Source: Microbacterium sp. MYb45 | Lineage (GTDB): Bacteria; Actinomycetota; Actinomycetes; Actinomycetales; Microbacteriaceae | Length of the DNA: 64,000 nt | NCBI RefSeq assembly: GCF_002979655.1 | Contig: NZ_PCPG01000011.1 | Location: forward strand, 1 to 64,000 | Direction of reading: 5' to 3' | Part shown: piece after piece, positions 54,216 through 61,137 of the stretch | How the letters are laid out: every line of letters starts with the position of its first letter | Numbering within the stretch: the stretch's first letter is position 1 | The notes under the pieces: model-generated | What the model was told of the DNA's origin: nothing | Database searches by the model: none | Seen by the model: the letters and a program-made list of their open reading frames with translations, nothing else | Translations under genes and position numbers: made by a program

Positions 54216-56225
54216 CTAAGACGTGCGTTCGGCCTCACGTCGGTCACGTTCGGCGAGCGCGGCGAGCCTTGCGTTGTACTCCTCGAGCTCCGCGTCACCC
54301 GTGCGGTCCGCGTGCCGGTCCGCCCGACGCTGCAGCTTGGTGTCGCTGCGGCTCCACTGGATGGCGACCGTGATCGCGAGGATCAGCGTCGGGATCTCCC
54401 CGATCGACCACGCGATGCCGCCACCGACGTACTGGTCCTGCAGCGGGTCCACACCCCAGTCGCGACCCATCGCCCCGAACCAGTCGGCGACCATCAGCCC
54501 CTCCTGCATCATGATCGCGATGCCGAAGAACGCGTGCATCGCCATGACGGCGATCAGCGTGATCAGGCGTCCGGGATACGGCAGACGGTACGGAACCGGG
54601 TCCGCGCCGATGAGGCTCATGACGAACAGGTAGCCCGAGATCAGGAAGTGGATGACCATCCACTCGTGCCCGAGGTGCTCGAACATCGACCAGCGCACGA
54701 GATCGGTGAAGTAGAAGGCCCACAGCGACAGGATGAAGATCGCCGCCGCGACGAACGGATGCGTGACCACGCGGGCGAACGGCGAGTGCACGGCCCACAT
54801 GATCCACTCGCGGCCGCCACGGGTGCCGTCGTCGCGCTTGTGGATGGCACGCAGCGCGAGGGTGATCGGGGCCCCGGAGACGAGCAACAGCGGGATCGCC
54901 ATCGACAGCATCATGTGGCCCATCATGTGGATGCTGAACAGGTACTCCTGGTACGCGTTGATCGGCCCGCCGGTGACCCAGACGAGCAGCAGCGCCCCCA
55001 GCACCCAGAAGACCGTGCGATGGATCGGCCAGCGGTCACCACGCCGATGCAGGCGCCACACGCCGGCCAGGTAGAAGAACAGTCCGAGGCCCGCGGCGAT
55101 GAGCCAGAGCACGTCGATGTCCCACGCCGTGAACCAGCGCTCGAGGGTGAGCTCCGGCGGCAGCGTCGCTCCGGTCAGGATCTGGGCGGGCGTCTGCAGG
55201 AAGGCGGCGGTCTCGCCGGTGGGAGGGGGTGTGCGGGCCAGCGCGGCCGCGGCGCCGGAGGCGAGGCCCATCAGCGCGACCTCGCACAGCACGAGCAGCC
55301 AGAACCAGCCGGCGGCACGGGCTCCGGCGAGCTTCGGGATGAGGCGCGCGCGGTACCAGGCGCCGAGCAGGCCCATGCCACCCAGCAGTGCGACCTTGGC
55401 GAGCACGATCCAGCCGTAGGGCGTGGTCCACAGCGCGTTCCAGTCGCCGACGGCGACGATCGATCGCGTGACCCCCGACACGGCGACCACGGCGAAGGCG
55501 GCGATCGCGAGCGACGAGTAGCGCCCGACGAGCCTCGCGGTGTCGACGTCGGCACGTCCGCGCAGCAGGATCAGCAGCAGAAGTCCGCCGAGCCAGACGG
55601 CGGCGCCGATCGTGTGCAGCAGGATCGAGTTGACCGCCATGTTGTGCCCGGCGAGATCGCCCGCGTGACCCTGCGTCGCGAGTGGGAGGAAGGATGCCGC
55701 GGCCAGCAGCGCCGTGATGAGCGTGGGCGTCCATGAACGCCAGGCGAACGCGAGCACCGTGATGATCGCACCGAAGAGCGTCGTGATGAGCCAGGACTGG
55801 CCGAGCGGCAGTTCCAGCAGGAAGCGGCCCAGCTGCGTACCGAACTCGCGCTCGATGCTGAGCTTCGGGTTGAAGGCGGCCATGAAGGCGAGGAACCCGG
55901 CGAGGCCCGCCGAGATCGTGAACACGGCGGCGCCGACCGAGGCGATGTTCAGCGCGGCGTCGAACGAGCGGTCCCCCGCGCGCAACCCGAACAGGGCCAG
56001 TACCAGGGAGCCGAGCATCACCGCACCGGACATGTTCATCACGAGCTTGGCGATCGGCGTGCCCCAGAGCACGAAGGGACCAGGGTCCTGCAGGAGCGGG
56101 GGCTTAGCGCCGCCGCCGACGAGGAGCGCGAGCGTCAGGGCGACCAGTGCCGCGACGAGGAGGATGACGATCCCGGCGATGCGATACGCCGAGATCCGAC
56201 TCGTCGACTCACTGCGGGAACTCAC
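54216..56225 (-). CDS. CopD / CtaG fusion: copper resistance and cytochrome oxidase assembly protein
   Basis: A 669-residue polytopic membrane protein joining two families. The N-terminal half (about residues 15-330) is CopD-like, with LLHTIGAAVWLGGLLLL and GHAGDLAGHN. The C-terminal half (about 370-630) is the CtaG/caa3-oxidase assembly family with YLFSIHMMGHMMLSMAIPLLLV, FEHLGHEWMVIHFLISGYLF and MHAFFGIAIM. His and Met residues in helices fit copper handling. Such fusions are common in actinobacteria and probably deliver copper to cytochrome c oxidase. The GTG start abuts GGAGGG, leaving about one base of spacing, which is unusual. A hydrophilic tail rich in Arg, Glu and Ala ends the protein. 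Confidence 0.92.
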   Translation of the reverse strand: MSSRSESTSRISAYRIAGIVILLVAALVALTLALLVGGGAKPPLLQDPGPFVLWGTPIAKLVMNMSGAVMLGSLVLALFGLRAGDRSFDAALNIASVGAAVFTISAGLAGFLAFMAAFNPKLSIEREFGTQLGRFLLELPLGQSWLITTLFGAIITVLAFAWRSWTPTLITALLAAASFLPLATQGHAGDLAGHNMAVNSILLHTIGAAVWLGGLLLLILLRGRADVDTARLVGRYSSLAIAAFAVVAVSGVTRSIVAVGDWNALWTTPYGWIVLAKVALLGGMGLLGAWYRARLIPKLAGARAAGWFWLLVLCEVALMGLASGAAAALARTPPPTGETAAFLQTPAQILTGATLPPELTLERWFTAWDIDVLWLIAAGLGLFFYLAGVWRLHRRGDRWPIHRTVFWVLGALLLVWVTGGPINAYQEYLFSIHMMGHMMLSMAIPLLLVSGAPITLALRAIHKRDDGTRGGREWIMWAVHSPFARVVTHPFVAAAIFILSLWAFYFTDLVRWSMFEHLGHEWMVIHFLISGYLFVMSLIGADPVPYRLPYPGRLITLIAVMAMHAFFGIAIMMQEGLMVADWFGAMGRDWGVDPLQDQYVGGGIAWSIGEIPTLILAITVAIQWSRSDTKLQRRADRHADRTGDAELEEYNARLAALAERDRREAERTS

Positions 56226-56262
56226 CCCTCCAGCCTAGGCGCGCCCGGAGGGAGGAAAGCAC

Positions 56263-56296
56263 GAAGGCCGCCCCCGTCGGAACGGGAGCGGCCTTC
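56263..56296 (-). terminator. Terminator hairpin after the HU-like gene
   Basis: GAAGGCCGC (56263-56271) pairs with GCGGCCTTC (56288-56296), with inner pairing of CCCGT and ACGGG. It starts 16 bases past the HU-like stop. It lies between that stop and the CopD-CtaG start, so it should separate the two transcripts. Confidence 0.8.
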
Positions 56297-56312
56297 GATG
56301 AGGTGCGGTCGA

Positions 56313-56600
56313 TTACTTGACGGCAGCCTTGAGCTTGGAGCCAGCGGTCACCTTGACGCGCTTGCCGGCCGGGATCTTGATCTCGGCGCCGGTCTGCGGG
56401 TTGCGGCCCGTGCGAGCAGCGGTGTCGACCTGCTCGAAGGAGATCCAGCCCGGGATGGAGACCTTGCTGCCCTTGGCAACAGCGTCGGAGACCGTGGCGA
56501 ACAGCGAGTCGAGGACACCGGAGACGGTGGCCTGGCTCTGGCCCGTGGCGCTTGCGATGCTCGCGACGAGCTCGGTCTTGGTGATGGACTTGTCAGCCAT
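56313..56600 (-). CDS. hup: HU-family DNA-binding protein
   Basis: A 95-residue nucleoid protein. It begins with ADKSITKTELVASIASATGQS, the HU N-terminal helices, and has the DNA-contact arm segment IPGWISFEQVDTAARTGRNPQTGAEIKIPAGKRVKVTAGSKLK in family order, including the RNPQTG turn that intercalates DNA. It ends in LKAAVK without the long Lys/Ala tail of mycobacterial HupB. GGAGGATGAC precedes the ATG. It acts as a dimer on the chromosome. The 182 bases upstream contain no gene and should hold its promoter, but I could not fix the -35/-10 elements. Confidence 0.96.
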   Translation of the reverse strand: MADKSITKTELVASIASATGQSQATVSGVLDSLFATVSDAVAKGSKVSIPGWISFEQVDTAARTGRNPQTGAEIKIPAGKRVKVTAGSKLKAAVK

Positions 56601-56782
56601 GTCATCCTCCAGCGACGAGATCCCGTCGCATCGTTGTGGGTATCGGAGCGGATGCTCCTGGTCTAGTGACCGCCTCGAATGTATCAACCACCACCCGCAT
56701 TTCCGCGTCATTTCGCGGGTTTTGGGCAATTACTGGGCGTGTCGCACCACTTTGGCCACTCCAGTCACAGATTCGAGGGTCG

Positions 56783-57364
56783 TCAGCGAGCGCGGTGCGC
56801 GTCGATCACGGCCCGGGCGGTGCGCTCGAACGCCGGGCTGACACGGCCTTCGCCGTCGAGATATCCGCCGACGAGCGCGGCATCGCGCAGCAGCACGAGG
56901 GAGGCTGCGACCTCCTCGGGACGCTCGAGATCGGCCGCCTCGGCGACCTGCTGCAGCGTGGAGCGGAACCACTCCCGGTGCTCGTCGATGAGCTGCCGCA
57001 CGGCCCCACCGGCATCCGGATACTCCGCGGCCGCGTTGATGAAGGGGCAGCCCCGCGTATGGTGTTCGCGGATGTCGGCGGCGATGCCCTGGACGACCGC
57101 ATCCAGCAGCGCGTCAGGATCGGAGACGGTCGCTCCCGCCTCCGTGAACATCGCGCGGAGCATCTCGTCCTCGTGGCCGAGATAGGCGAGCACGAGGTTC
57201 TCCTTGCCGCCGAACTGCTTGTAGAGGGTGGCGCGGGTGACCCCGGCCTCCTCGATCACACGGTCGACGCCGACCGCGTGGATGCCCTGTTCGTAGAAGA
57301 GGCGGGTGGCGGCATCGATCAGCCGTGCGCGGGCGGGGCTGGGGCGCTTCGTCGTGGTGTCCAT
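56783..57364 (-). CDS. TetR-family transcriptional regulator
   Basis: A 193-residue TetR protein. The HTH is in LIDAATRLFYEQGIHAVGVDRVIEEAGVTRATLYKQFGGKENL, read in segments at residues about 15-57. The C-terminal ligand domain includes HHTRGCPFINAAAEYPD, typical of the YjdC/AcrR-like branch. It is divergent from an alpha/beta hydrolase gene, with a 147-base gap holding a 22-base inverted repeat. That repeat is the likely operator, so the hydrolase is likely its target. The small molecule sensed is unknown. Confidence 0.93.
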   Translation of the reverse strand: MDTTTKRPSPARARLIDAATRLFYEQGIHAVGVDRVIEEAGVTRATLYKQFGGKENLVLAYLGHEDEMLRAMFTEAGATVSDPDALLDAVVQGIAADIREHHTRGCPFINAAAEYPDAGGAVRQLIDEHREWFRSTLQQVAEAADLERPEEVAASLVLLRDAALVGGYLDGEGRVSPAFERTARAVIDAHRAR

Positions 57365-57436
57365 GATCTTCCTCTCATCGTGTCATCCGAACCCCGGCAT
57401 CCGAATCCGTTTTCCCGGTTTGGGGAATAGGTTGTG

Positions 57437-57458
57437 GTAGATAGAACGTTCGGTCTAC
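57437..57458. promoter_or_regulatory. TetR operator between the regulator and hydrolase genes
   Basis: GTAGATAGAAC (57437-57447) and GTTCGGTCTAC (57448-57458) form an inverted repeat with 9 of 11 pairs. TetR-type operators with GAAC/GTTC centres of this kind are common. It lies 53 bases upstream of the hydrolase ATG, a place suited to block its promoter. Confidence 0.75.
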
Positions 57459-57511
57459 TATCAGCGTAACGCACTTCCGATCAGCGGGAGCCGAACAGAG
57501 AGAAGAAGATC

Positions 57512-58339
57512 ATGAACACCACCGACAAGACCCCCATCGTCCTCATCCACGGGCTGTGGATGACCCCGACCAGCTGGAACACCTGGGCCGAGCGCTTCCG
57601 CGCGAAGGGCCACGAGGTCATCGTCCCGGGATGGCCCGGCATCGACGACCGCTCGGTCGAGGACATCCGCCGCGACCCGTCCGCCCTGAAGGGCATCGGA
57701 CTGAAACAGATCGTCGACCACTACGAGCGCATCATCCGCTCGCTGCCCGTGAAGCCGATCGTCATGGGCCACTCCTTCGGCGGCGTCATCACGCAGATGC
57801 TGGCCGACCGCGGCGTCGGCGCCGCGTACGTGGGCGTCGCCCCCGGACAGACCGCGGGCATCACCACCCTGCCGCTGTCGACGCTGTGGACCGGCACCCC
57901 GATCCTCGCGAACCCCTTCGGCCGCAACGGCGCCAAACCGCTGTCGAAGCGCCACTTCCACTTCACGTTCGGCAACGACCTGAGCCGCGCCGAATCCGAC
58001 CGCCTCTGGGAGGAATCGGCCGTGAACTCCTACAACCGGGTCTTCTTCGAGGGCGTCGCATCCGCGTTCAACGAGAAGGGCGGCGTCACGCACGTCGACT
58101 ACGCGCGCACCGACCGGGCCCCGCTGTATGTGATCACGGGTGAGATCGACCACGTCGTGCCGCCGGCGATCGGTCGTGCGATCGTGCAGAAGTACCGCTC
58201 CACCGGCAGCCCCGCCGTCGTCGAGTACAAGGAGTACCCCGGGCGCACCCACCGCCTGGTCAGCCAGGACGGCTGGGAAGAGATCGCCGATGAGGCCCTC
58301 ACCTGGGCCGTCGCGCACACCACCGCACCCGTCGCGTGA
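57512..58339 (+). CDS. Alpha/beta hydrolase
   Basis: A 275-residue cytoplasmic hydrolase. HGLWMTP after strand 3 forms the oxyanion hole, the nucleophile elbow is GHSFGG with Ser88, an Asp follows in TGEIDHVVPP and the catalytic His in PGRTHRLV. The layout resembles lipase- and non-heme-peroxidase-like hydrolases often paired with TetR regulators. AGAGAGAAGAAG precedes the ATG. The substrate is unknown; the family covers esterases, lactonases and haloperoxidase-like enzymes. Its promoter region contains the TetR operator. Confidence 0.92.
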   Translation: MNTTDKTPIVLIHGLWMTPTSWNTWAERFRAKGHEVIVPGWPGIDDRSVEDIRRDPSALKGIGLKQIVDHYERIIRSLPVKPIVMGHSFGGVITQMLADRGVGAAYVGVAPGQTAGITTLPLSTLWTGTPILANPFGRNGAKPLSKRHFHFTFGNDLSRAESDRLWEESAVNSYNRVFFEGVASAFNEKGGVTHVDYARTDRAPLYVITGEIDHVVPPAIGRAIVQKYRSTGSPAVVEYKEYPGRTHRLVSQDGWEEIADEALTWAVAHTTAPVA

Positions 58340-58370
58340 CGCCGGCTTGTTCGGTGCCCGCCGACACCCC

Positions 58371-58445
58371 CGCGTGGGGCGGAGATCTCGCCGATGGGCG
58401 GAGGATAACGGCGCATTCTTCCGCCCAACGCGGAGTTCTCCGCCC
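58371..58445 (+). repeat. 75-base palindromic repeat, copy A (downstream side of DUF559 gene)
   Basis: This element starts CGCGTGGGGCGG and folds into a hairpin: an outer stem 58377-58389/58433-58445 (12 of 13 pairs) and an inner stem TGGGCGGA/TCCGCCCA (58395-58402/58420-58427). It matches copy B at 59391-59465 in inverted orientation at 54 of 75 positions by hand count. It lies 31 bases after the hydrolase stop and 23 bases after the DUF559 stop. No coding function is seen. Confidence 0.8.
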
Positions 58446-58468
58446 GGCGGCGTGCGCGAGAGTCCACC

Positions 58469-59293
58469 TCAACGCGCGAGATGGAGGCGCTGAGCGATCG
58501 CGGTCAGGATTGCACCCTGCACAGAAGCCCAGTGGTTCATGAGCTGGTCGTAGCCGATCCGGATCACGTGGTAACCGCGGATCATGAGTTCGGCATCGTG
58601 AGCGATGTCGCTCGTGCGCTGCACCCCCACATGATGGCCGCCGTCGATCTGCACGACGAGTCGTTCTCCGATCAGGAAGTCGACGCGATGCCCGACGATC
58701 CACACCTGCGGCGTGATCGGCAGGTCCAGCCAGGCCATTCGCGTCCGAAAGATGGTCTCGGTCCCCGCATCCGCGAACGGCCGAGCATCAGTGAGCAGTC
58801 GTCTCGCCGCCGGCGGGAGGGCCATCCGCTCGAGGGATTCGGCGTCGAACATCCGCGCCCGCATCGCGGACTCCCAGGTCGCGAGCGCATCTTCATGCGA
58901 CTGACAGCGGGCCACGAGAATGAGAGCATTCTCGATCGAGTCTTCGAGCAGTTCCGGATCTCGGGGGATGGCCGGTCTACTCCAGTGCACGACGCCCCTG
59001 ACGGCATTCGCATGACCGGAGTTCACCGGAGCCGCCACGTGCGGCTCGGATGCCGACGACACCCACAGCCCCTTCCGCTCGGCAAGGGTGATGCAACTGA
59101 GAACGACGCCGCGCCTTGCTGCCGCGATGAGCATCGCATCAGCACCCGGAAGAGCCACCCAGCCACGGCACACCGAGCTCACGAGGCCCGCCCGGACCGC
59201 CTGTCGGAGCATATGCTCCGTCACCCCGCAACGGCGCAGCGCGGCAACACGGGCGATCCCCTTCCGCGCCCTGAGCACGCCGACGACATCCAT
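58469..59293 (-). CDS. DUF559 protein, Vsr-like nuclease fold with N-terminal winged-helix-like region
   Basis: A 274-residue protein. The first 60 residues (MDVVGVLRARKGIARVAALRRCGVTEHMLRQAVRAGLVSSVCRG in segments) look like the AbiEi/type IV TA antitoxin N-terminal helix-turn-helix. The C-terminal 100 residues carry the DUF559 PD-(D/E)xK layout: HRVDFLIGERLVVQIDGGHHVG, then AHDAELMIRGYHVIRIGYDQL. The Asp of VDFL is kept, but the usual second acidic residue before IDG is Gln (VQIDG). There is no signal peptide. The gene stands alone, bracketed by inverted repeat copies at 58371-58445 and 59391-59465. Family members are often annotated as endonuclease-like; the function is not established. 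Confidence 0.87.
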   Translation of the reverse strand: MDVVGVLRARKGIARVAALRRCGVTEHMLRQAVRAGLVSSVCRGWVALPGADAMLIAAARRGVVLSCITLAERKGLWVSSASEPHVAAPVNSGHANAVRGVVHWSRPAIPRDPELLEDSIENALILVARCQSHEDALATWESAMRARMFDAESLERMALPPAARRLLTDARPFADAGTETIFRTRMAWLDLPITPQVWIVGHRVDFLIGERLVVQIDGGHHVGVQRTSDIAHDAELMIRGYHVIRIGYDQLMNHWASVQGAILTAIAQRLHLAR

Positions 59294-59390
59294 CCGTCGA
59301 TGATGCCGCGCAACCCGGCATCCACTCTTCGCCATTCCCGCGCTTTGTGTACGCAGCCGGGCGCATGAGCGCGGTGCAGTGTTAGTCGTC

Positions 59391-59465
59391 AGGCGAAGAA
59401 CTCGGTCATGGGCGGAGGAATCTGCGACGAGCTCCCGCCCATGACCGAGAAGTCCGCCCCACGCG
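59391..59465 (-). repeat. 75-base palindromic repeat, copy B (upstream side of DUF559 gene)
   Basis: This copy is in the opposite orientation to copy A. It contains a perfect 15-base stem: CTCGGTCATGGGCGG (59401-59415) with CCGCCCATGACCGAG (59435-59449), and an outer GGCG/CGCC pair set. The loop is 19 bases. Differences from copy A fall partly within paired positions, yet the fold is kept. It lies 97 bases upstream of the DUF559 start codon. Confidence 0.82.
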
Positions 59466-59505
59466 AGGGCATCACCACGCAGGACAGGACGCCCGGGCAC
59501 GCAGA

Positions 59506-59535
59506 AGGGGCGAGGATCCGAAGATCCTCGCCCCT
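59506..59535 (-). terminator. Terminator with UUCG tetraloop after rpsN
   Basis: A 13-base perfect stem (AGGGGCGAGGATC with GATCCTCGCCCCT) closes a 4-base loop that reads UUCG in the minus-strand RNA, flanked by C and G. It starts 15 bases past the rpsN stop. A UUCG loop closed by C-G is an exceptionally stable RNA hairpin. It ends the rpmB-rpmG-rpsN transcript. Confidence 0.88.
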
Positions 59536-59550
59536 CCTGTCAGCTGAGAC

Positions 59551-59856
59551 TTACCAGCTCGACTTGGTGACACCGGGCAGCTCGCCACGGTGTGCCATGT
59601 CACGGAAGCGGACACGCGAGATGCCGAACTTCGTGAGGACACCGCGGGGGCGGCCGTCGATGACGTCGCGCGAACGCACGCGAGCCGGCGACGCGTTGCG
59701 CGGCAGCTTCTGCAGGCCGACGCGTGCGGCCTCGCGGGCCTCGTCGGTGGCGTTCGGGTCGACCAGGGTCTTCTTCAGCTCGGCGCGACGCTCGGCGTAA
59801 CGCTCGACGATGACCTTGCGCTGCTCGTTGCGAGCGATCTTGCTCTTCTTAGCCAT
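59551..59856 (-). CDS. rpsN: 30S ribosomal protein S14, zinc-free long form
   Basis: A 101-residue S14. It begins [14 protein letters not shown] and ends with [31 protein letters not shown] in segments, as in long S14 proteins. No CxxC zinc knuckles are present, so it is the zinc-independent form; the zinc form is about 61 residues. It is the last gene of rpmB-rpmG-rpsN, 3 bases after rpmG, followed by a strong terminator. In mycobacteria and streptomycetes such zinc-free paralogues are induced by zinc shortage through Zur. It sits in the small ribosomal subunit. Confidence 0.97.
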
Positions 59857-59859
59857 TGA

Positions 59860-60030
59860 TCAACGCTCCTCTCGGAATTCGACGTGCTGACGGATGACCG
59901 GGTCGTACTTCTTGAGCACGAGGCGGTCGGGGGTGTTGCGTCGGTTCTTCTTCGTCACGTACGTGTAACCCGTACCTGCCGTCGAACGCAGCTTGATGAT
60001 CGGACGAACGTCCTGAGCCTTCTTGGCCAT
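59860..60030 (-). CDS. rpmG: 50S ribosomal protein L33
   Basis: A 56-residue L33 ([56 protein letters not shown] in order). It has no Cys at all, so it is the zinc-free version. It overlaps the rpmB stop by one base and ends 3 bases before rpsN, so the three are translated in series. GAGAGGAGCG near its end serves as the rpsN ribosome site. Confidence 0.97.
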
Positions 60031-60266
60031 TAGAGCTTCACACCCTTCGCCTGGAGGTCCTTGACCACGTTCTCGATGCCGCGGACGTCGATCACCTTGA
60101 TGCCCTTGGCGGACACGTTGAGCGTGATCTTACGACCGAGCGACGGAACGAAATACGTCTTCTTCTGCACGTTCGGGTCGAAGCGGCGCTTCGTCCGGCG
60201 GTGCGAGTGCGAGACATTGTGTCCGAAGCCGGGAACAGCTCCGGTCACCTGGCACACTGCTGCCAT
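60030..60266 (-). CDS. rpmB: 50S ribosomal protein L28
   Basis: A 78-residue L28. It starts [29 protein letters not shown] and carries [25 protein letters not shown], in segments. Only one Cys (residue 5) is present, so no zinc ribbon can form. It is the first gene of the three-gene operon. AAGGAGTCACATC lies before its ATG. The region upstream (60267-60405) has no visible gene; I looked for a Zur-type palindrome and found none. Confidence 0.97.
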
Positions 60267-60375
60267 GATGTGACTCCTTCTATACCGTGAGACCGGACGG
60301 CCTCACCCAAGATCCCTTGTCTGCACGCAACCTCGACCCGCCGATCTCTCGGCCGCAGAAGGGGAAGCACGCGAA

Positions 60376-60397
60376 CTGCGCACAGGAGTGTGCGCAG
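60376..60397 (-). terminator. Putative terminator after the DNA glycosylase gene
   Basis: CTGCGCACA (60376-60384) pairs perfectly with TGTGCGCAG (60389-60397) around GGAG. It starts 8 bases past the glycosylase stop in transcription order. The T-run is nearly absent, so its strength is uncertain. It may also serve as an upstream element of rpmB. Confidence 0.6.
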
Positions 60398-60405
60398 ACA
60401 AAGAG

Positions 60406-61137
60406 TCAGTTTAGCACGGGCGGAGTGCCGTCGAGCGCCGCGGCCTCGGCCGCGCCCCGCCCCCAGCGGAAGGGCGACACGGTGGGGTCGCCATCGATCC
60501 AGAAGCGCCAGGGGAACGCGTGCGTGCCGGCGACTCCGGCGACGCCGACCCGCGGGCCGCGCACCACGTCGTCCCGCGGCACGCCCAGCCACAGCTCGGC
60601 GCGTGCCCCGTGCTGTTTCTCCCCCGTGACGGCGTCGATCCCGTCGTGCAGCGGATGCCGCAACCCGACGGCCTGACCGAGACGCCCCGGCCCGCGGGCG
60701 AGGTCGCGAAGGGCGATCCGCCCGAGAGGCAGTGCCACACCGCGCCGACGAGCGGCGGCATCCGCTCCGGCCACGATCTCGCCCGCGCGCAGCAGCACGC
60801 CGTCGCCCTGTCCCTCGGGCCCGCACACGACGTTGACGCAGGAGTGGATGCCGTGACTCAGGTACACGTACAGGTGCCCCGGCTCGCCCCACATCGTGGC
60901 GTTGCGGGCGGTCGGCCCCATCCGCGCATGTGATCCGGGATCCGCGATTTCGCCGGTGCCCCGACCGTGGTACGCCTCGACCTCGGTGATACGCAGCCGC
61001 ACCTCGACCGGGTCTGTGGCTTCGGGCCCGACGACGAACGTGCGCAGTTCCGCGCCGAGCAGTCGCGGCGCGACGTCGACGGCAGAGCCGCCCAGATCGG
61101 CGCGAACGGCACGGCGCAGGGCATCGCGCGTCGACAT
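60406..61137 (-). CDS. 3-methyladenine DNA glycosylase (AAG/MPG family)
   Basis: A 243-residue DNA repair enzyme. The catalytic Glu54 is in ITEVEAYHG, the counterpart of human AAG Glu125 with Tyr56 matching Tyr127. HARMGPTARNATMWGEPGHLYVYLSHGIHSCVN, in segments, and VLLRAGEIVAG are family landmarks. It flips out and removes alkylated purines (3-methyladenine, 7-methylguanine, hypoxanthine), leaving an abasic site. It is the last gene of a same-strand run from the DUF318 permease and follows the repeat-rich membrane protein by one base. Confidence 0.95.
   Translation of the reverse strand: MSTRDALRRAVRADLGGSAVDVAPRLLGAELRTFVVGPEATDPVEVRLRITEVEAYHGRGTGEIADPGSHARMGPTARNATMWGEPGHLYVYLSHGIHSCVNVVCGPEGQGDGVLLRAGEIVAGADAAARRRGVALPLGRIALRDLARGPGRLGQAVGLRHPLHDGIDAVTGEKQHGARAELWLGVPRDDVVRGPRVGVAGVAGTHAFPWRFWIDGDPTVSPFRWGRGAAEAAALDGTPPVLN

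Follow-up and report, generated by a model that had tools for sequence, protein, structure and literature searches.

Many DUF559 genes of Microbacterium lie between palindromes of a shared four-box architecture: a candidate enzyme-plus-repeat system

A DUF559 gene of Microbacterium sp. MYb45, situated in a 64,000-nucleotide stretch of contig NZ_PCPG01000011.1 (hereafter, the window), lies between two palindromes, and many related genes across the genus lie between palindromes of their own. Sequence comparison establishes this pairing, together with a common palindrome architecture, the dispersal of three palindrome families, conserved acidic residues in the proteins and purifying selection on the window gene. 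Pfam lists DUF559 as a family 'of unknown function'. The arrangement of nuclease and palindromes looks, from the sequences, like a new kind of enzyme-plus-repeat system. It is probably best explained as a REPtron-like system built on an unrelated enzyme: each nuclease would recognise its own palindromes and help to copy or homogenise them.

Results

Two inverted palindromes enclose the window gene

The features of the locus are collected in Table 1. Palindromes A and B lie in inverted orientation and are 72% complementary over 83 nt (58367-58449 against 59387-59469), which confirms the two inverted elements of the initial annotation, where a hand count had given 54 of 75 positions. Each element is also a long hairpin, as had been claimed. 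The internal arms are 83% complementary in A (58377-58405/58417-58445) and 79% in B (59387-59415/59435-59463), and the single-stranded DNA folds of -27.7 kcal/mol (z -4.2) and -25.6 kcal/mol (z -4.7), respectively, were equalled by 0 of 200 shuffles in both cases. The inverted pair is genuine and well beyond what chance would give. Read off the sequence, the boxes of A have a period of 19 bp in both arms; those of B are less regular and have the same 19 bp period in each arm.

Table 1. Features at and around the window DUF559 gene
Feature	Coordinates	Strand	Remarks
Alpha/beta hydrolase gene	57512..58339	+	Identified by Pfam; convergent with the DUF559 gene; outside the system
Palindrome A	58371..58450	+	3' of both the DUF559 gene and the hydrolase gene; covariance-model score 96.3 bits
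Palindrome A boxes	58377-58384, 58396-58403; reverse-complement 58419-58426, 58438-58445		GGGCGGAG; read off the sequence
DUF559 gene	58469..59293	-	274 aa + stop; ATG at 59293; further in-frame ATG at 59335
Vsr/EDxHD-type nuclease domain, residues 174-270	58484..58774	-	E179, D205, D217, H221, D229
AbiEi-antitoxin fold, residues 1-171	58781..59293	-	Winged-helix and a further part; proposed DNA-reading half
Palindrome B	59387..59469	-	5' of the DUF559 gene, between that gene and the rpsN terminator; covariance-model score 75.9 bits, - strand
Palindrome B boxes	59391-59398, 59410-59417; reverse-complement 59433-59440, 59452-59459		Read off the sequence
rpsN hairpin, inverted repeat I5	59502..59539	.	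94% complementary; taken as the ribosomal-operon terminator; outside the system

The DUF559 gene is the sole gene between the palindromes. For its product, described earlier as AbiEi-like plus DUF559, Pfam gave E-values of 3.4e-7 for DUF559 and 1.8e-3 for AbiEi_4, the latter under its cut-off. The S14 (rpsN) neighbour was likewise identified by Pfam; the other ribosomal neighbours, in the order rpmB-rpmG-rpsN, are presumably rpmB and rpmG, as named from their protein sequences. No T-run follows palindrome A or B on either strand in a reading of the sequence, so that this feature of intrinsic terminators is absent. A search of positions 56000-61000 for known RNA families returned two matches only, both far under the gathering score of miRNA models. 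In a second genome (G060, locus L099), a short tandem repeat of units resembling GTGGTGCCCTCGCG separates the rpsN hairpin from palindrome B, on the rpsN side of the DUF559 gene; the unit is present as a single copy in the window.

The protein combines an AbiEi-type fold with a Vsr/EDxHD-type nuclease domain

The AlphaFold2 model of the window protein (pLDDT 91.3, pTM 0.82) is composed of two halves. Residues 1-171 superpose on the AbiEi antitoxin 6y8q (Z 9.8, rmsd 4.4, 171 aligned of its 195 residues). For residues 174-270 the best match is the homing endonuclease I-Bth0305I (3r3p; Z 13.2, rmsd 2.3, 94 aligned), with further matches to 3hrl (Z 12.8) and to Vsr (1cw0, Z 10.1). A profile search returned 3hrl at 2.9e-4 and 3r3p at 0.02, and a search of four proteins against NCBIfam at E 0.1 gave no match. 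Judging from the model, the DUF559 proteins of Microbacterium are probably two-part DNA enzymes that join an AbiEi-type DNA-binding fold to a Vsr/EDxHD nuclease. Membership of a defence system was considered and rejected, the PADLOC matches (AbiEi, homing-endonuclease) being weak.

Residues E179, D205, D217 and D229 are invariant in the 74 relatives selected by their flanks (see below). The column of H221 holds His in 53 of the 74 as aligned, and in 8 of 8 and 41 of 41 sequences in two other alignments. Alignment A6 comprises 41 proteins, that of the window and those of 40 of the 80 named loci; L262:3001-3789, a DUF559 gene with an in-frame stop near its end, was omitted from it for that stop. 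The Gln noted earlier at the usual second acidic position is real, residue 215 being Gln in 58 of the 74 proteins and Glu in 16. By a match of spacing rather than a computed alignment, this position appears to fall outside the five active-site positions proposed for the DUF559 protein VsrA (PMC12907096). The three pairwise comparisons among the window gene, the M. oxydans gene (L241) and L242 gave dN/dS values of 0.23, 0.17 and 0.16, which indicate that the window gene is under purifying selection relative to both.

DUF559 genes are paired with matching flanks

Of the DUF559 loci scored, 74 of 119 have flanks that match each other (score at least 45), whereas among size-matched control genes the figure is 2 of 347; the remaining 45 DUF559 loci fall under this score. 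The 119 loci are not phylogenetically independent, and the 32 sequence groups described below are the fairer unit. Scored loci comprise 44 of 45 local ones (L220 was too short) and 75 named ones. The latter derive from 80 named relatives, nearly all from Microbacterium with two from Leucobacter and a few under other titles, which were fetched along with 40 further loci of the genus; the nearest is M. oxydans Moxy_1, with a 96% identical protein. From the control set, DUF559 genes of the rpsN locus and genes within 500 bp of a DUF559 gene (114 such genes) were removed, and its fixed geometry fits DUF559-sized genes, so that shorter genes bracketed by window-type pairs are missed. One retained control, L206:2873-3364, is not DUF559 by profile and has a flank score of 111; it is the only control above 46. 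A separate test of the best local flank-to-flank match gave a median of 58 at 76 of the 80 named loci (L260, L311 and short flanks being left out) versus 24 at 130 neighbouring genes. These comparisons demonstrate, at the level of sequence, that the gene and its palindromes are paired.

The palindromes of a pair may be in direct or inverted orientation. The upstream one lies mostly 80-170 bp before the start codon (roughly 100 bp) and the downstream one mostly no more than 90 bp past the stop. The genome of the window contains five DUF559 genes at E <= 0.001, with flank scores of 80 (C21:144130), 58 (the window gene), 36, 30 and 25; strong hairpins different from those of the window surround some of the others. 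At four distant loci outside Microbacterium, with shorter flanks and no matched control, the scores were 56, 41, 39 and 28. The highest of these belongs to a faecal phage clone (L408, MT839994.1) encoding a distant AbiEi-DUF559 relative, and the other three to Tsukamurella records, among which the score of 41, a weak one, is at another distant AbiEi-DUF559 relative (L406).

Unrelated palindromes share one box spacing

The palindromes at the 74 matching loci, 148 in all, form 32 groups by sequence. They are about 70 bp long, with four boxes 18-19 bp apart, and their sequence differs by gene family. Repeats of an 8-base box at 18-19 bp, with at least 7 of 8 bases alike, are present in 27 of the 32 groups, and 21 groups have them in both flank copies. 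At nine other offset pairs the number of groups ranged from 1 to 9, and under the null of shuffled palindromes it averaged 2.6 and never exceeded 6. An earlier count of the four-box layout, 29 of 32, was discarded as inflated by palindromicity alone, and the direct-repeat test was used instead.

Palindrome similarity and protein identity are correlated over the 74 loci (Mantel rho 0.30, p 0.001), both among non-syntenic pairs only (rho 0.18, p 0.001) and among syntenic ones (rho 0.77). At protein identities of 70% or more, the median palindrome score of non-syntenic pairs is 50 (7 pairs), versus 19-21 at lower identities. Matching flanks were the criterion by which the 74 loci were chosen; the spacing test does not depend on this selection, and the protein-palindrome correlation is only partly independent of it.

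Three palindrome families are dispersed in their genomes

Window-type palindromes recur in 19 of 119 Microbacterium genomes by BLAST (E <= 0.001) and in 27 of the 119 by a covariance model built from 23 copies (E <= 1e-5). Palindrome A has a 93% identical copy in G060, and a solo near copy (85% identical) is found in its own genome at C10:50450, beside a gene that we take to encode a CorA-like transporter. Match numbers under the model, such as the 46 in G116 (E <= 0.1, 18-genome search, both strands), are about twice the number of places because a palindrome usually matches on both strands. Over the 23 copies, 85.3% of hairpin cells are paired compared with at most 56.0% in slid versions, and 10 pairs have changed on both sides. 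The pairing excess is modest by the column-shuffle control, being reached by 2 to 8 of 500 shuffles, and the covariation score was reached by 0 of 500; within that measure, the earlier remark that substitutions partly preserve pairing is borne out.

Among the matches listed, 77 window-type copies outside the rpsN locus were examined relative to genes called by a simple codon-usage script. Convergent genes flank 40, tandem genes 30 and divergent genes 3; another 3 coincide in part with a called gene, and the last is at an edge. A flanking stop codon lies at a median distance of 34 bp. For comparison, the gaps of 90-1000 bp between genes of these loci comprise 48 convergent, 75 tandem and 46 divergent ones. 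Window-type palindromes also occur solo, and pairs enclose one or two unrelated genes at five loci at least (L100, L102, L103, L104 and L105). A pair is therefore no marker of a DUF559-only transposon, a candidate that is ruled out by these solo copies and foreign pairs.

In G083 and G116, window-type pairs enclose one and the same small membrane-protein gene (seen among loci L103, L104, L109 and L183). In G066 two elements stand next to each other on a single side of that gene, and in G077 the orthologous place holds a solo element. At one intergenic site, G077 (L336) carries a window-type palindrome, G060 (L162) and G000 (L348) carry one of unrelated sequence, with boxes GTCGCA/TGCGAC, that recalls the flanks of DUF559 locus L298, and G040 (L335) carries neither. 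A palindrome-bearing stretch of G001 (L171, L172) is in the assembly twice, almost identical, with one of the two on a 10-kb contig.

Three unrelated palindrome families, including that of the window, are each dispersed in their genomes, mostly at the 3' ends of genes. The C21:144130 type is found at 7 further places in its own genome (E <= 0.05), two of them partial (27 and 36 of 77 bases); among six that were inspected, five have a stop codon 20-57 bp away and the sixth overlaps a called gene. The palindrome of the M. trichothecenolyticum DSM 8608 gene (ACAGGTCAACCGG, of unrelated sequence) occupies at least 21 places, with 40 of 64 candidates scored; 2 of these bracket the gene, 1 adjoins it and 18 are away from it. 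Twenty aligned copies have sharp ends and conserved inner and outer boxes, and the 13 that were placed are 10 convergent, 3 tandem and 0 divergent.

The initial annotation had tied the element idea to the repeat being present elsewhere and linked to DUF559 genes in relatives. The idea passes that test: the repeat is found elsewhere and accompanies DUF559 genes of relatives, and further DUF559 genes have palindromes of different sequence arranged in like manner.

The rpsN locus varies without a clean empty site

A DUF559 gene adjoins rpsN in 17 of 35 inspected clade genomes (31 of 32 inspected, G084 being omitted with a contig that ends after 1,158 bases, plus the window genome, G060, G116 and G001). 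Two of the 17 genes look broken, with an internal stop in G114 and two short frames in G004. Hits of the covariance model (E <= 0.05) lie on both sides of the gene in 13 of the 17, window, G060 and G116 included, and on the rpsN side only in G001 and G064; G092 and G033 have the gene with no model hit beside it. Several genomes (e.g. G075, G096, G117 and G034) carry a palindrome at this locus that is unlike that of the window, yet alike on both sides, and across species the palindrome sequence changes on both sides of the gene together. In G014 and G066 a solo palindrome is found at the locus and no DUF559 gene is there.

Window-type hits have a median of 10 in the 17 genomes with an rpsN-linked gene versus 2 in the 18 without (one-sided p 0.003; counts compiled by hand from inspected loci), a comparison skewed by a model that derives from a single motif type. 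Hits are still found in 10 of the 18, and G077 has 26 window-type matches (both strands) with no rpsN-linked DUF559 gene and one weak DUF559 hit genome-wide.

The unit had been described as sitting like an insertion between the hydrolase and rpsN. A recent insertion is not supported, given the presence of the gene there in 17 of 35 genomes and its purifying selection. For the comparison with strains lacking the insert, the rpsN loci of G005 (no element seen), G066 and G014 (solo elements) were not alignable to base level, and within that limit the comparison yielded no clean insertion, empty site or target-site duplication. The G060 locus L162 offers no clean empty-site case either. The suggestion of an undescribed small element, or of a nuclease acting on its own hairpins, is thus strongly supported as to the link of nuclease and palindrome and unsupported as to a recently inserted unit.

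Discussion

The mechanism that we envisage begins with many DUF559 proteins, each paired with its own four-box palindrome family, of which two copies bracket the gene and others lie between genes, chiefly at 3' ends. Dimers or tetramers of the protein could bind boxes spaced 18-19 bp apart, about two helical turns, and the nuclease would nick or cut the palindrome in extruded or double-stranded form. Repair or joining of the break might then copy palindromes to new intergenic places and keep them alike within a genome. The steps differ in strength. Recognition of its own palindromes by each DUF559 protein is likely, and the nuclease probably cuts them; copying or homogenising in trans, argued by analogy, may or may not occur. 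A broader proposal is about as likely as not: the several AbiEi-EDxHD (DUF559) enzymes of a genome would each recognise, cut and spread a private family of four-box palindromes, with rapid co-evolution of enzyme specificity and palindrome sequence, and so define an undescribed class of nuclease-driven repeats.

Could the palindromes instead be operators? The AbiEi-like half would then only autoregulate its gene, and possibly genes near solo copies, while the nuclease acts elsewhere, for example in mismatch repair or defence. AbiEi antitoxins do autoregulate through 23-bp inverted repeats in their own promoters, and they bend DNA (PMC7319586), and the upstream palindrome often lies roughly 100 bp from the start codon. 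A second copy right past the stop codon is poorly suited to such a role, however, as are dispersed copies that are mostly at gene 3' ends (among the matches listed, 73 were placed, 40 convergent, 30 tandem and 3 divergent). We consider this reading unlikely.

The preference for 3' ends, with strong hairpins a median of 34 bp from stop codons among the matches listed, would fit bidirectional terminators or mRNA-stabilising hairpins spread by recombination, with the DUF559 genes as passengers, and palindromes do bracket other genes too. Yet the window elements lack a T-run and rpsN has a hairpin of its own, and neither the excess of matching flanks at DUF559 genes over controls nor the fixed box spacing across unrelated sequences is explained; we hold this to be quite improbable. 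Pairs around several unrelated single genes, and the locus where G083 and G116 have the gene bracketed and G077 has a lone element, would also suit MITE-like non-autonomous elements moved by an unrelated transposase with DUF559 genes as cargo. Against this, motif and protein vary together, and one box spacing is common to 32 motif groups, which a foreign transposase would not require. Moreover Y1_Tnp (PF01797), the transposase family searched for, was detected in 1 of 119 genus genomes (G041), which is without a repeat match, and is absent from the window's own genome. MITE-like elements are thus a very improbable account.

Recognition and copying of private palindromes by a DUF559 nuclease would have several consequences. 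For dozens of DUF559 members at once, there is now a concrete and testable candidate DNA substrate, and many natural enzyme-target pairs with diverged specificity are on offer. If the proposal is true, unrelated nucleases gave rise to palindrome-plus-enzyme systems on at least two occasions, and the present one would be a second, independently evolved solution to the task of RAYT and REP. A search of titles and the beginnings of abstracts, mostly outside subscription journals, found no literature linking DUF559 to palindromes.

Comparison with known systems

Each half of the protein recalls a described system. With AbiEi antitoxins it shares the fold. It differs from the AbiEi system in being fused to a nuclease and in having palindromes to either side of the gene and at other places in the genome, and no AbiEii nucleotidyltransferase toxin gene is beside the window gene, where the neighbours are hydrolase and ribosomal protein genes. 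The mismatch endonuclease Vsr and Caulobacter VsrA (DUF559) have the fold of the nuclease half in common with it, as well as, by spacing, the active-site residues proposed for VsrA (PMC12907096); they differ in that the window protein has an extra AbiEi half and is paired with palindromes, and among the three neighbouring proteins scanned at the window there is no cytosine methyltransferase.

The EDxHD homing endonucleases are represented by I-Bth0305I, with which the window protein shares the catalytic-domain fold and the residues E, D, H and D. The window gene differs in standing alone between the hydrolase gene and rpsN, with no intron or intein around it; the proposed DNA-reading half has an AbiEi fold, and the putative targets are many dispersed palindromes. 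According to PMC3943268, I-Bth0305I forms dimers on a target of nearly 60 bp. Taken with the 23-bp repeats and DNA bending of AbiEi antitoxins, a target of this size would suit a four-box palindrome of about 70 bp.

The likeness to REPtrons, which combine TnpA-REP/RAYT with REP/BIME palindromes, lies in the layout. According to PMC8266576, these have a gene bordered by palindromes, dispersed copies and co-variation of protein and palindrome, and TnpA-REP is proposed to spread or homogenise REP palindromes in trans. Here, too, the gene is bordered by palindromes, far more often than control genes are, and palindromes of three families are dispersed; the earlier comparison with a REP/RAYT-type arrangement carrying a nuclease-like protein is strongly supported by layout, dispersal and the 74 of 119 loci. 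The enzyme differs, an AbiEi-EDxHD/Vsr protein (DUF559/AbiEi) taking the place of the HUH (Y1_Tnp) enzyme, and so does the palindrome, here of about 70 bp with four boxes. Membership of RAYT/REP proper was rejected, since repeat-bearing genomes have no Y1_Tnp. As far as tested, no component appears to be homologous to those of REPtrons, and it is the arrangement that resembles them.
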